A DNA stretch of 64,000 nt. Source: an uncultured Clostridia bacterium. Its GTDB lineage: Bacteria; Bacillota; Clostridia; Peptostreptococcales; Anaerovoracaceae. Shown in pieces: positions 12,375 to 19,027 of the stretch. The DNA lies in assembly GCA_945830395.1 (NCBI GenBank), contig CALZYE010000004.1, positions 54,342 through 118,341 of the forward strand, written 5' to 3'. Position 1 is the stretch's first letter; the number at the start of each line of letters is the position of its first letter. The translations under genes were made by a program, and so were the position numbers. A model generated the notes under the pieces. It saw only the letters and a program-made list of their open reading frames with translations. It did not search any database and was not told the origin of the DNA.

Positions 12375-12743
12375 ATGGCGTCTAAGAAGAATGAGGATAT
12401 GTATCGCTGTGACTGCAATGTGATTCACGAAGAAGTTATTGAGAAGGTTGGAGAACACATGCCTGAGGATGATACTCTGATGGATCTGGCAGATGCCTTT
12501 AAGGTTTTCAGCGACTCCACGAGGCTGAAGATTTTATGTGCGCTTTTGCAGGAGGAGATGTGCGTATGTGACATTTCTTCGCTATTGGGAATGTCAAAAT
12601 CGGCAGTTTCACATCAGCTTCGCACTTTGAAGCAGACGAACTTGGTGAAAAACAGAAGAAGCGGGAAGGAAGTATACTATTCTATTGCTGACAAGCATGT
12701 GGAAACCATTATAAATAACGGTATGGAACATGTTTTGGAATGA
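12375..12743 (+). CDS. ArsR/SmtB-family metal-sensing repressor (CadC/CzrA-like)
   Basis: A 122-residue winged-helix repressor. The N-terminus has a CDCN pair (YRCDCNVIHEE), the arrangement seen in CadC-type sensors. The DNA-binding helix carries the ELCVCD-like stretch as EEMCVCDISSLLGMSKSAVS, followed by HQLRTLKQTNLVKNRRSGKE. The C-terminal helix ADKHVETIINNGMEH could supply an alpha-5 metal site. GGAGG precedes the ATG. It heads a unit with an HMA protein and a P1B-ATPase and probably represses them until zinc, cadmium or lead binds. Confidence 0.9.
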   Translation: MASKKNEDMYRCDCNVIHEEVIEKVGEHMPEDDTLMDLADAFKVFSDSTRLKILCALLQEEMCVCDISSLLGMSKSAVSHQLRTLKQTNLVKNRRSGKEVYYSIADKHVETIINNGMEHVLE

Positions 12744-12813
12744 TAAAATCGTATGTTTTCGTAAACCGTAGCGTCAGATTTGGCACTACGAAATTGTATC
12801 GGGGAGGTAAAAA

Positions 12814-13032
12814 ATGAAAAAGAAATTTAAGATGGATGAACTGCAGTGTGCAAACTGCGCAGCTAAGATGGAAGCTGCAATCAAAGAAATTCCGGGTGTT
12901 TTGAATGCAAATATGAATTTTATCATGCAAAAGCTGACACTGGAGGCCGATGATGACAAATTTGAGGAAATCATAGAGGAAGCTCAAAAAATATGCGATA
13001 AGTTTGAGCCGGGAATTAAAATCGTTAGATAA
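12814..13032 (+). CDS. Stand-alone heavy-metal-associated (HMA) domain protein
   Basis: The 72-residue protein has the HMA beta-alpha-beta fold pattern with the metal-binding pair in MDELQCANCAAKMEAAIKEI (CANC). A strong GGGGAGG site precedes the ATG. The downstream P-type ATPase lacks any N-terminal HMA domain, so this protein probably acts as a detached metal-binding domain or chaperone for it. CopZ-like copper chaperones share the fold, but the context suggests a Zn/Cd system. Confidence 0.85.
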   Translation: MKKKFKMDELQCANCAAKMEAAIKEIPGVLNANMNFIMQKLTLEADDDKFEEIIEEAQKICDKFEPGIKIVR

Positions 13033-13106
13033 GAAATTTGCCGAAGTAAACCGGTTATTTCGGCATTACCCTTACCAAAGAAGCAGTATAAAGAGGCAGT
13101 ATTGAG

Positions 13107-14975
13107 ATGGATAAGAACAAGAAGAAGCTAATCAGATTTATAATTTGCGCAGTCTTATTTGCAGGAATTGAAGTAATACGAAGAACGCTGTTAAAAAGTT
13201 ATTTTAACGAAGAAATTTGGATAGGATATTTTCTGTATGTTCCCACATATCTTTTGGCTGCATACGATATTCTCTTCAAAGCGTTTAAGAATATATCGAG
13301 AGGACAGATATTCGATGAAAACTTTTTGATGATGATAGCGACATTCGGGGCTTTCGGAATAAGGGAATTTTCTGAGGCGCTGGCGGTTATATTGTTTTAT
13401 CAGCTTGGAGAACTTTTTCAGGATTATGCGCTGGGTAAGAGCAGAAACTCAATTAAGGAACTGATGGAGATATGTCCTGAATATGCAAATTTGGAGACGG
13501 AGTCATCGGTAGAGACGGTAGATCCTGATGATGTTCCTGTGGGAAGCATAATTGTAGTTAAGCCGGGTGAGAGAATCGCCCTTGACGGACTGGTTATAGA
13601 GGGAGATTCCATGGTTGATACATCTTCTCTCACCGGAGAATCTGTACCTGCAAGAGTGACCAAGGGAGATGAGGTTATAAGCGGCTGCGTAAACGGAAGC
13701 GGTCTTCTGAGAGTGAAAACTACCAAAGAGTTTGAGGATTCAACAGTTTCAAGAATACTTGAACTTGTGGAAAATGCCACGGGGAAGAAGGCAAAAGTGG
13801 AGAACTTTATAACACGATTTGCAAGGGTATATACACCGATTGTAACTGTAGGTGCAGTGCTTCTTGCCACCGTTCCGCTGCTATTTTTCGGCGGTGCTTT
13901 CTCAGACTGGCTGCAAAGGGCATGTGTATTTCTGGTTATATCCTGTCCCTGCGCTTTGGTTATTTCCGTTCCGCTGGGATTCTTCGGCGGTATAGGAGCC
14001 GCATCTAAAGCAGGTATCCTTGTTAAAGGCGGAAATTATATTGAAGCAATATCGAAGATGAATACGATGGTGTTTGATAAAACGGGAACACTGACTGAAG
14101 GAAATTTTGTGGTCAGCGAAGTTGCGCCTGAAAACATGTCAAAGGAAGAGCTTATTTGCATCGCGGCACTTGCGGAAGGCTATTCCAATCACCCTATAGC
14201 ACTTTCTGTCAAAGAGGCTGCCAAAGCTGAGCCGGATTTATCCAAGGTAAAGAGTATTGAAGACATTTCCGGGAAGGGAATTGTTGCAGAGACCGAAAAT
14301 GGAAGTATAATTCTGGGTAATCCAAGGATTATGGAGGAAAATGGAATAAAGATCCGAGAAAACGATGCACCGGGGACTGTAATCTATGTTGCAGAGAACC
14401 AAACCTTTTTGGGAAGTATCGTGATTTCAGATACGGTAAAAAAGGGTGCAAAAGAGGCGATTCAAAATGCAAAGGAAATGGGAATAGAAAACTGCATAAT
14501 GCTTACCGGAGACAAGAAGCAGGTTGCAGAAAGCGTGTGCAGAGAACTTGGGATAGACGAGTGGTACAGTGAGCTTTTGCCTCAGGATAAAGTTGAAATA
14601 ATGGACCGAATTCTGAAAAAGACACATGCTAAAGGATTTTTAGGCTTTGCAGGAGACGGTATTAATGATGCTCCCGTACTTGCCCGTGCAGATGTAGGCT
14701 TTGCAATGGGCAGCATGGGCTCAGATGCAGCTATTGAGGCTGCAGATGTTGTGATAATGGACGATGATTTGGATAAGATAGGCAGAATAATTCGCATATC
14801 GAGAAAGACCATGTCCATAGTAAAAGCAAATATTGTATTTGCAATCGGAGTAAAATTTCTGGTCCTCGGACTGGGAGCTTTGGGCATTGCCAACATGTGG
14901 TCGGCGGTATTTGCAGATGTGGGAGTTGCAACCCTGTGCATTCTTAATTCCATGAGAATGCTCAGGTATGGATGA
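13107..14975 (+). CDS. Heavy-metal-transporting P1B-type ATPase (CadA/ZntA-like)
   Basis: This 622-residue membrane pump exports divalent metal ions using ATP. Visible landmarks are the actuator TGES (SSLTGESVPARV), the transmembrane metal site CPCALVISVP, the phosphorylation motif DKTGTLTEG, the P1B HP motif (YSNHPIALS) and the hinge GDGINDAPVLARADVGFAMG. The CPC site and an early membrane pair with charged residues fit the Zn2+/Cd2+/Pb2+ subgroup. The N-terminus runs straight into membrane helices without a metal-binding domain. It follows the ArsR repressor and HMA protein, probably as one operon. Confidence 0.92.
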   Translation: MDKNKKKLIRFIICAVLFAGIEVIRRTLLKSYFNEEIWIGYFLYVPTYLLAAYDILFKAFKNISRGQIFDENFLMMIATFGAFGIREFSEALAVILFYQLGELFQDYALGKSRNSIKELMEICPEYANLETESSVETVDPDDVPVGSIIVVKPGERIALDGLVIEGDSMVDTSSLTGESVPARVTKGDEVISGCVNGSGLLRVKTTKEFEDSTVSRILELVENATGKKAKVENFITRFARVYTPIVTVGAVLLATVPLLFFGGAFSDWLQRACVFLVISCPCALVISVPLGFFGGIGAASKAGILVKGGNYIEAISKMNTMVFDKTGTLTEGNFVVSEVAPENMSKEELICIAALAEGYSNHPIALSVKEAAKAEPDLSKVKSIEDISGKGIVAETENGSIILGNPRIMEENGIKIRENDAPGTVIYVAENQTFLGSIVISDTVKKGAKEAIQNAKEMGIENCIMLTGDKKQVAESVCRELGIDEWYSELLPQDKVEIMDRILKKTHAKGFLGFAGDGINDAPVLARADVGFAMGSMGSDAAIEAADVVIMDDDLDKIGRIIRISRKTMSIVKANIVFAIGVKFLVLGLGALGIANMWSAVFADVGVATLCILNSMRMLRYG

Positions 14976-16200: not shown

Positions 16201-16599
16201 TTACTCCTCTGTACTGGTTACTTTAGCCAACTTCTTATTTATGCGTGTCATTACTTTGGTGTAGTATTTGGCATCTTCCTCTGAAAGCTTAGATTGATCA
16301 ATTTTTTCAAGTTTTTCCATCATTTTGGTATACTTGGTCAGATAGTTTGTGTAGTCTGTAATCATACCTAATGCATCGTCAGAATTTTGATACTTGTTCA
16401 TAAAGCTAACATACTCATCAAAGAAATCTTCGTAAGAATCCATTAATTTTTTAAACTTCTTACTAACCGTAGGCTTTTTTTGTTCTGTCTGCGCCGTTTT
16501 CTTTTTCTCTTTGGATTCTGATGAATTTTTTCCCGCGCATCCCACCAGCAGACCGGTGCAGAGAAGTGATGACAGCAAAATTACCATTGCCTTCTTCAT
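16201..16599 (-). CDS. Lysine-rich lipoprotein (DUF6591-like)
   Basis: The signal peptide MKKAMVILLSSLLCTGLLVG ends in the lipobox LLVGC, so the mature protein should be lipid-anchored outside the cell. A short lysine/serine linker is followed by a helical domain (KLMDSYEDFFDEYVSFMNKY, MEKLEKIDQSKLSEEDAKYY, VMTRINKKLA), which I match tentatively to DUF6591-type proteins. The track starts four residues earlier, but that ATG lies within the GGAGG site; ATG 16599 with GGAGGTATCA before it is the real start. A small membrane-protein gene and an Lgt paralogue follow. Confidence 0.82.
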   Translation of the reverse strand: MKKAMVILLSSLLCTGLLVGCAGKNSSESKEKKKTAQTEQKKPTVSKKFKKLMDSYEDFFDEYVSFMNKYQNSDDALGMITDYTNYLTKYTKMMEKLEKIDQSKLSEEDAKYYTKVMTRINKKLAKVTSTEE

Positions 16600-16730
16600 T
16601 GATACCTCCATAAAAATTTAGATAGATAAAACCGCTCAGCACATCCAGTATATATATATATAGTCAAGACTTTTCGGAAAAATTTTATAAGAAAATTGGA
16701 TAAACTTACCACAAGAAAAAGGCAGCTTAT

Positions 16731-16773
16731 AAAAAAGTGAGATTCGTATGCCTTGGAAGCACACAAATCTCAC
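16731..16773 (-). terminator. Strong intrinsic terminator of the metallophosphoesterase gene
   Basis: On the minus strand GTGAGATT-TGTGTGC pairs with GCATACG-AATCTCAC (15 bp including two G-U pairs) around a 7-nt loop and is followed directly by TTTTTT. It lies 70 nt past the stop of the upstream minus-strand gene. Confidence 0.8.
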
Positions 16774-16842
16774 CATGTCTTTGACCTATCAAATTGATAA
16801 TTTCACCTTCCTTTGAAAAATCGCAAGTTGCCACAGGTGTTT

Positions 16843-18012
16843 TCAATATTGGAAGTCAATTACTGCGATTTCACTCTTAGTCCCTATCCTTATAGGCGCC
16901 CCGGAGGTTCCTATTCCCGATGTTACGACGCTGTATACATTGTGAATAGTCTTTAACCCATAGGGATTTTCATATAGAAAACGGTCTATTATATTGCCGG
17001 GAAAATACTGCCCGTCTCTGGTATGCCCGCTTAGAGCAACATCGACACCGCTTTCCTGAAAACGCTTGAAGTCATCGGGCCTGTTCTGAAGCACAAAAAT
17101 CGGCATGCGGCTATCCAGAGAACCGGTAAGCGCCGAAACGGATGCACGCTTCTGAGTACTGTAGGAATCATCGGTTCTTGCCACAATCTGCACCCCGTTA
17201 ATATAGATGGTAATATCCTCAAGAATCTGAAAACCGCTGTCGGTCATATATTTGCTCATCTGTTCTCTGCTTGGATTCGGAGTATTGGGCATCAGGGTGA
17301 AGCCTGCGAAAAGAGGCTGTTCAATGTCGGTGTTGCCATATACGGCATAGACTCCCTGTTTAGCTTTTATTCCTTTCAAAATTTCTGAATACAGGTCGGG
17401 ATTCTTAAGAGAACTTAAGTAACTGCTGAATGTATTTCCGGCAACGAATACCGCATCCGCATCCTGCTTATTTATCTCTCTGACCATTGCTTTCAGCTGT
17501 TCCACATGGGTATTTGCACCTAACTGAAGGTCAGATATGAGCACTACCTTCAGCTTGCCGGAGGATGTGGTCTTTTTTGACGAGGTTATGTTATATTTGG
17601 TTGTTCTGACCTTATGAGAATTTACATGTCCGAAAACATTCAGTGACATGGAGACCAAAACGCATATACTCAGAACCGTAACGCCTATCCAAGGTGCAAC
17701 AACTGCTTTGTCGGGATTCTTATGGTTGATTATCCAAGCGATTCCTCTGAATACATGAAAGATAATCAGACAGCCCGTAAAATAAATAAGGAAGCCGAAC
17801 CACAGGTTTCCGTTGGTTTCCAAAATATTTCTCAGAGAGCCTTCCCCTAAAAAAGCAGCTCCCACAGGCATAAGACCTAAAGCGATAAAGATTAAATCGG
17901 TTAAAATTCTGGGAATTACGCTTTTTGATATGAGTTTAAGCCAGTGATTCAGCTGTAAAATCGTATATATGTATAATATTGAATATAGTGCAATTATTAT
18001 AAGTACTTTCAT
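16843..18012 (-). CDS. Membrane-anchored metallophosphoesterase-fold protein, probably inactive
   Basis: The N-terminal ~130 residues hold about four membrane helices. The rest follows the calcineurin-like phosphoesterase plan (YkuE/YaeI type) closely enough to align by eye. Every metal-ligand motif is altered, though: DLH becomes DLQ (VVLISDLQLG), GD becomes GN (VAGNTF), GNHD becomes GNTD (VYGNTDIE), the LDHQP histidine becomes LQNRP, and GHTH becomes GHTR (LSGHTRDGQYFPG). The flanking scaffold is intact and the frame is open, so this looks like a maintained pseudoenzyme rather than a decaying gene. It is divergent from purC and ends at a strong terminator. The substrate or ligand is unknown. 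Confidence 0.85.
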   Translation of the reverse strand: MKVLIIIALYSILYIYTILQLNHWLKLISKSVIPRILTDLIFIALGLMPVGAAFLGEGSLRNILETNGNLWFGFLIYFTGCLIIFHVFRGIAWIINHKNPDKAVVAPWIGVTVLSICVLVSMSLNVFGHVNSHKVRTTKYNITSSKKTTSSGKLKVVLISDLQLGANTHVEQLKAMVREINKQDADAVFVAGNTFSSYLSSLKNPDLYSEILKGIKAKQGVYAVYGNTDIEQPLFAGFTLMPNTPNPSREQMSKYMTDSGFQILEDITIYINGVQIVARTDDSYSTQKRASVSALTGSLDSRMPIFVLQNRPDDFKRFQESGVDVALSGHTRDGQYFPGNIIDRFLYENPYGLKTIHNVYSVVTSGIGTSGAPIRIGTKSEIAVIDFQY

Positions 18013-18157
18013 AGTTTCTCCTTTCGACTGTTATAGTATTTTACAAAAATTTTATATAAAATACAATGTTATTTATATGAAATATGATATAATGATTAAA
18101 AAAATTGGCGATTAAAATATTGATTGAAATCGGAAATAAGCAATGTGGGAGGATAGA

Positions 18158-19027
18158 ATGGAAGTTTTTAAGCCTGTTAAGGAAGGAAAAGTAAGAGAGA
18201 TATACGACAACAACGAAAGTCTGATCATGGTGGCCACCGATAGAATTTCAGCATTTGACCATATTCTGAAGAATAAGATTACAGATAAAGGTGCAATTTT
18301 AACCCAGATGTCAAAGTTTTGGTTTGACCTGACAAAGGATATAGTTCCAAACCATATGATTTCTGTGGACAATAACGATATGCCGGAGTTTTTCAGGCAG
18401 GAGGGGTATGTGGGAAACAGCACCATGTGTAAGAAACTCACCATGCTTCCGGTTGAATGTATCGTCAGAGGATATATAACAGGCAGCGGCTGGGCAAGCT
18501 ACAAGAAGGACGGAACCGTTTGCGGAATCAAGCTCCCTGAAGGCTTAAAGGAGTCGGACAAGCTTCCCGAGCCCATTTATACCCCAAGCACAAAGGCGGA
18601 AATAGGAGATCACGATGAAAACATTTCCTTTGAGAAAAGCATCGAGGTGATAGAAAGAGAATTTCCGGGAAAGGGAAAGGAGTATGCGGCAAAGCTGAGA
18701 GACTATACCGTGGCGTTGTACAAGAAGTGTGCCGAATATGCCCTTGAAAGAGGAATTATTATAGCAGATACCAAGTTTGAATTTGGACTTGATGAAGAGG
18801 GGAATGTGGTTCTGGGAGATGAGATGTTGACTCCGGACAGCTCCAGATTTTGGCCTTTGGAGGGCTACGAACCCGGAAAATCACAGCCTTCTTATGACAA
18901 GCAGTTCGTCAGAGACTGGCTTAAGGCTAATCCGGACAGCGACTATCTTCTTCCGGATGATGTAATTGAAAAAACCGTTGCAAAGTATAAAGAGGCTTAT
19001 GAGCTGCTAACGGGAAAGGCTTTTTAA
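18158..19027 (+). CDS. purC: Phosphoribosylaminoimidazole-succinocarboxamide synthase
   Basis: PurC joins aspartate to CAIR in purine synthesis. The 289-residue chain carries GKVREIYDNNESLIMVATDR at the N-terminus, the signature VECIVRGYITGSGWASY, and IADTKFEFGLDEEGNVVLGD with LTPDSSRFWP. ATG 18158 has GGGAGGA upstream; the track start at 18143 is not needed. A TATAAT at 18088-18093 is the probable -10 element. The gene stands apart from other pur genes here and overlaps the next gene by TAATG. Confidence 0.95.
   Translation: MEVFKPVKEGKVREIYDNNESLIMVATDRISAFDHILKNKITDKGAILTQMSKFWFDLTKDIVPNHMISVDNNDMPEFFRQEGYVGNSTMCKKLTMLPVECIVRGYITGSGWASYKKDGTVCGIKLPEGLKESDKLPEPIYTPSTKAEIGDHDENISFEKSIEVIEREFPGKGKEYAAKLRDYTVALYKKCAEYALERGIIIADTKFEFGLDEEGNVVLGDEMLTPDSSRFWPLEGYEPGKSQPSYDKQFVRDWLKANPDSDYLLPDDVIEKTVAKYKEAYELLTGKAF

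Follow-up and report, generated by a model that had tools for sequence, protein, structure and literature searches.

Organization of the locus

The window is the whole 64,000-nucleotide stretch of DNA analyzed here, which comes from a draft assembly of 46 contigs (genome G000). On its minus strand it carries a gene for a membrane-anchored protein of 389 amino acids with a calcineurin-like phosphoesterase domain. The open frame is uninterrupted and occupies exactly positions 16843–18012 in the ORF listing. It has a Shine-Dalgarno-like AGGAG 7–8 nt upstream of its ATG, and just after the gene lies a strong terminator-like hairpin (18-pair stem and T-run, 16774–16736, minus strand), in agreement with a preliminary description of an open frame with its own terminator. 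The protein belongs to the Metallophos fold family (PF00149), with 25.6 bits against a Pfam cut-off of 21.5. The features of the locus are as follows.

16843–18012, minus: pseudo-metallophosphoesterase ORF, membrane-anchored, 389 amino acids (ORF call, PF00149 match, 66% identical ortholog in G003)
17563–18012, minus: residues 1–150, four predicted transmembrane helices and linker (hydropathy, loop charge, 64 homologs)
16846–17562, minus: residues 151–389, calcineurin-like phosphoesterase domain (PF00149 over residues 154–331)
17524–17532, minus: motif I, D161-L-Q163 (canonical DLH), His lost and Asp retained (homolog alignment)
17434–17439, minus: motif II, G192-N193 (canonical GD), bridging Asp lost (homolog alignment)
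17326–17337, minus: motif III, G226-N227-T228-D229 (canonical GNHD), catalytic His lost and ligand Asn retained (homolog alignment)
17083–17085, minus: motif IV, N310 (canonical His) (homolog alignment)
17017–17028, minus: motif V, G329-H330-T331-R332 (canonical GHTH), second His replaced by Arg and first His retained (homolog alignment)
16736–16774, minus: terminator-like hairpin 3' of the pseudo-phosphoesterase gene (18-pair stem and T-run)
18143–19027, plus: purC, divergent neighbor and marker of the orthologous locus in relatives (purC 81%–86% identical, located near the orthologs)

A small lipoprotein-like gene with DUF6591 (16201–16611, minus) adjoins the phosphoesterase gene. Further away, an ArsR-type regulator is followed by a heavy-metal P-type ATPase (12375–14975, plus); in the sister species G003 and in G001 and G004, the ATPase is found about 6 kb or less from the phosphoesterase. 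No RNA elements or tRNAs were found in the window.

Residues 1–130 form four hydrophobic helices by hydropathy. Across 64 homologs, positive charge is found in loops 1 and 3, with means of 3.9 and 5.5 Lys+Arg, respectively. This pattern predicts an N-out/C-out topology, so the phosphoesterase domain is probably extracytoplasmic, as judged from charge distribution only. A structure model built from the window protein and one relative placed helices at residues 2–28, 35–53, 57–98, and 105–130, but it was of low confidence (pLDDT 41) and for this reason was not used for fold search or pocket mapping. Neither a single-sequence search nor one with a 9-member profile found a solved structure close enough by sequence.

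Active-site substitutions

All five phosphoesterase motifs are altered in the window protein, through H163Q, D193N, H228T, H310N, and H332R. These five columns are H, D, H, H, and H in 59 of 59 canonical homologs, to which the window protein aligns without gaps. More broadly, the columns of D161, H163, D193, N227, H228, D229, H310, H330, and H332 are canonical in 58–59 of the 59. The standard scheme counts seven ligands (D, H, D, N, H, H, H) and, in addition, a catalytic His; by this scheme the window protein lacks four of the ligands as well as the catalytic residue. Motif I departs from D-x-H through H163Q but keeps D161; motif II has lost its bridging Asp (D193N); motif III keeps N227 and D229 but not the catalytic His (H228T); the motif IV His is now Asn (H310N); and motif V keeps the first His (H330) but not the second (H332R). 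The changes are concentrated in the active site, where five of nine columns are affected, compared with three of 30 near-invariant columns outside it (Fisher p = 0.009), and this is not chance drift.

These observations narrow the preliminary description. It had reported substitutions in all five ligand motifs, and each motif is indeed altered, but its reading of motif IV as LDH to LQN was overstated. Because the residues preceding the motif IV His vary within the subfamily, where LQH, LEH, and IEH are all frequent, the change of His to Asn is the only loss in this motif. Its statement that every metal ligand is lost does not hold, since D161, N227, and H330 remain. By contrast, the preserved spacing and scaffold around the motifs that it described can be seen in the ungapped alignment and in the retention of 27 of 30 invariant columns outside the ligands.

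Alanine changes at equivalent residues reduce or abolish the function of Bacillus subtilis ShfP (PMC11488536), and the phosphoesterase LpxG is inactivated by D59A (PMC4807358). From the substitutions, we infer that the window protein lacks both catalysis and a dimetal site, while a weakened mononuclear site may persist through D161, N227, and H330. A change of His to Gln in motif I is not by itself diagnostic of inactivity, because another subfamily of the genus has DLQ rather than DLH in nearly all members. This is a YkuE/YaeI-like second phosphoesterase (L163, on contig C9 of G000 at 16808–17686, plus strand, and L164–L176), whose other motifs are mostly canonical; its G001 and G004 members also have GNPD in motif III.

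Orthologs at the purC locus

At a threshold of E ≤ 1e-40, 61 of 351 genomes from the window's taxonomic family contained members of the subfamily, and an order-wide search at the threshold used found it only within that family. Sampling comprised one draft genome per species, with the active-site state of the window protein represented by two species only. In the genus, the phosphoesterase gene usually lies between purC, which is transcribed divergently from it, and a convergent gene encoding a B3/4 domain (G001, G004, G006, G012, and G016); in G003 the B3/4 gene is adjacent and purC lies four kilobases away. A purC gene 81%–86% identical to that of the window was present near the phosphoesterase ortholog in G001, G002, G003, G004, G006, G012, and G016. 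By its position at this locus, the window protein is orthologous to an active calcineurin-like phosphoesterase anchored in the membrane by four helices.

The closest ortholog, from the sister species G003 (66% identical), is also degenerate, with Q163, N193, R228, S310, R330, and R332. It has lost one ligand more than the window protein, keeping two of D161, N227, and H330, and has changes at six of nine active-site columns compared with three of 30 near-invariant columns elsewhere (Fisher p = 0.0017). The next relatives, G001 and G004 (51% identical), are fully canonical, as is G012. The window and G003 proteins have in common H163Q, D193N, E232Q, H332R, and P372A, at columns that are otherwise invariant in 58–59 of 59 homologs, and the codons are identical in both species at four of these five sites (163, 193, 332, and 372). 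Because the same new residues occur at five near-invariant sites, four of them with identical codons, the shared losses most likely predate the split of the two species. The preliminary description had asked whether the substitutions are conserved as a clade, and for H163Q, D193N, and H332R this is the case in both species, down to the codon.

We considered a redundant paralog as the cause of relaxed constraint and rejected it: the window genome has no other member of the subfamily, though G003 and G016 each carry a canonical paralog (L016 and L015, respectively).

Recurrent ligand loss and a neighboring membrane protein

Ligand loss was found in five of 64 homologs, namely, the window and G003 proteins (one event) and those of G006, G016, and G231. 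The residues involved differ: N>D, H>Y, and H>G in G006 (L005); H>C and H>L in G016 (L008); and N>T, H>F, and H>Q in G231 (L038). The hypothesis that all degenerate members share one origin was rejected (AU p = 0.004), so ligands were lost independently about four times. Four of the five degenerate proteins are encoded at the purC/B3-4 locus, which corresponds to four of seven proteins at this locus compared with one of 57 elsewhere (Fisher p = 0.0003, ignoring shared ancestry).

In 35 of 64 homologs, the phosphoesterase gene adjoins a same-strand gene for a membrane protein that fuses DUF975 to ABC_trans_CmpB (for example, L080:10934-12826, L082:10491-12404, and L085:7791-9575), making the two a candidate functional pair. 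None of the five degenerate members has this neighbor (Fisher p = 0.016, ignoring shared ancestry), although several canonical copies are also unlinked. PF06541 is absent from genomes G000, G001, and G004. The distribution suggests, weakly, that the phosphoesterase was separated from its DUF975-CmpB partner before catalysis was lost.

Selection on the degenerate clade

The two degenerate proteins of the window clade have retained their scaffold. In both, 27 of 30 invariant columns outside the ligands are unchanged, and their lengths differ by one residue (389 and 390) with no internal stops. Identity between them is 75% at positions next to the motifs and 63% elsewhere in the domain, and active pairs show this ranking too. 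Pairwise maximum-likelihood omega between the two genes was approximately 0.09 (0.08 in the phosphoesterase domain), a rough value given a dS of 2.45, which is near saturation; omega = 1 was rejected (2dlnL = 229). Synonymous sites were also saturated in the control genes ftsW, pbp, purC, and arsR, several with unbounded dS, so we relied instead on branch-length ratios, which are independent of dS and express the phosphoesterase branch relative to ftsW, pbp, and purC combined. These ratios were 1.92 for the window species, 1.62 for G003, and 2.75 for their stem, compared with 1.89 for the G001/G004 stem, 2.70 for G012, and 3.26 for G002 among canonical orthologs. The partly degenerate copy of G016 (L008) was the only fast one (6.24), with a rate, measured against the reference proteins, roughly double that of the others or higher, and may be truly decaying.

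The window clade is clearly under purifying selection, with no extra branch length compared with active orthologs; the kept scaffold, the rejection of omega = 1, and the lack of branch acceleration together argue against decay. Catalytic losses are thus common to the clade, and fold and frame have been under purifying selection afterwards, the pattern expected of a pseudoenzyme. The preliminary description had proposed a dN/dS comparison, which came out in favor of constraint, and had named as refutation a canonical sister with a relaxed copy in the window; the sister is instead degenerate too, and neither branch is accelerated. Its suggestion of a non-catalytic protein kept by selection agrees with the clade-shared losses, the purifying selection, and the lack of acceleration, although its premise of total ligand loss was mistaken.

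Proposed function and alternative explanations

We consider it likely that the window protein is a selectively maintained pseudo-phosphoesterase at an orthologous locus, with its dimetal site dismantled and a role in binding or scaffolding rather than hydrolysis. The dinuclear metal site would have been dismantled in the ancestor common to the window species and its sister, with the fold under purifying selection throughout. The protein would then work without hydrolysis, as an extracytoplasmic domain held at the membrane, and the former active-site face would bind a phospho-ligand, a lipid headgroup, or a wall polymer, or hold a partner protein. The nature of this ligand or partner is conjecture. 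One specific form of this explanation, which we regard as rather unlikely, is a metal-free anion pocket in which Arg replaces the metal charge and the old phospho-ligand is bound uncut. The shared H332R, D193N, and E232Q would each make the pocket less negative, and G003 adds R228 and R330, but the net charge of the window domain is unremarkable (−2, like that of canonical G004), and degenerate proteins outside the window clade gained no Arg there. A broader proposal, speculative and in our view unlikely, is that purC-locus phosphoesterases have been converted repeatedly and independently from enzymes into metal-free surface receptors, with Arg taking the place of the metal charge in the window clade and a lipid headgroup or wall polymer as the phospho-ligand, bound and not cut.

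Simple decay, in which the enzyme became dispensable, for instance once its DUF975-CmpB partner was gone, and its gene is now drifting out of the genome, would account for ligand losses in about four lineages at different residues each time, for the lack of an adjacent DUF975-CmpB gene in all five degenerate proteins, for the fast G016 copy, and for the further degradation in G003. However, the intact frames of the window clade, the 27 of 30 scaffold invariants, an omega far below 1, and unaccelerated branches speak against it, the DUF975-CmpB association is phylogenetically non-independent (p = 0.016 before correction), and several canonical copies likewise lack the linkage. We therefore find decay distinctly unlikely for the window protein. 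It is quite improbable that the enzyme is still active with an altered metal center, in which D161, N227, and H330 together with Q163, N193, and N310 hold one or two other metals. Three ligands are indeed retained, Asn and Gln can ligate metals, and the DLQ of the other subfamily in the genus indicates that H>Q alone is tolerated, but the bridging Asp and catalytic His are gone, the second motif V His is now Arg, and R228, R330, and R332 with a Ser at another active-site His position in the 66% identical sister leave no conserved metal site possible. An assembly or sequencing artifact, conceivable in a 46-contig draft, is highly improbable, as the changes lie in five separate codons and an independent assembly of another species (2 contigs) shows several of them as well.

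The proposed pseudo-phosphoesterase is one of a set of close orthologs with zero, two, three, five, and six active-site positions lost. The locus thus offers a natural series for studying the conversion of an extracytoplasmic enzyme to a binding protein and whether this is preceded by loss of an operon partner. A limited search of open-access literature found no pairing of metallophosphoesterases with pseudoenzymes and a single pairing with pseudophosphatase.

Comparison with known phosphoesterases

The window protein resembles LpxG/YaeI-type enzymes (NF033458, PF00149) in domain fold, motif order, and N-terminal membrane anchor. It scores below threshold with both models (37.3 bits for YaeI, cut-off 188; 46.6 bits for LpxG, cut-off 350) and so falls outside the LpxG UDP-2,3-diacylglucosamine diphosphatases (NF033458). 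LpxG has a single predicted membrane helix, whereas the window protein has four and has lost four of its seven ligands together with the catalytic His. Extracytoplasmic calcineurin-like domains are found in the Gram-positive envelope in B. subtilis ShfP (YvnB) and PhoD (PMC11488536), a location predicted for the window protein as well, but those proteins have all five motifs, are active, and differ in how they are anchored and in domain architecture. A precedent for loss of catalysis comes from the B subunits of eukaryotic replicative DNA polymerases, which are inactivated relatives of archaeal PolD DP1 kept as structural subunits (PMC4996933, PMC2669801). Like the window protein, for which we infer inactivity, they have a calcineurin-like phosphoesterase fold in which catalysis was lost. 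In contrast to it, they are soluble, act in replication in another domain of life, and have a known partner; apart from the fold, the two are not directly related.
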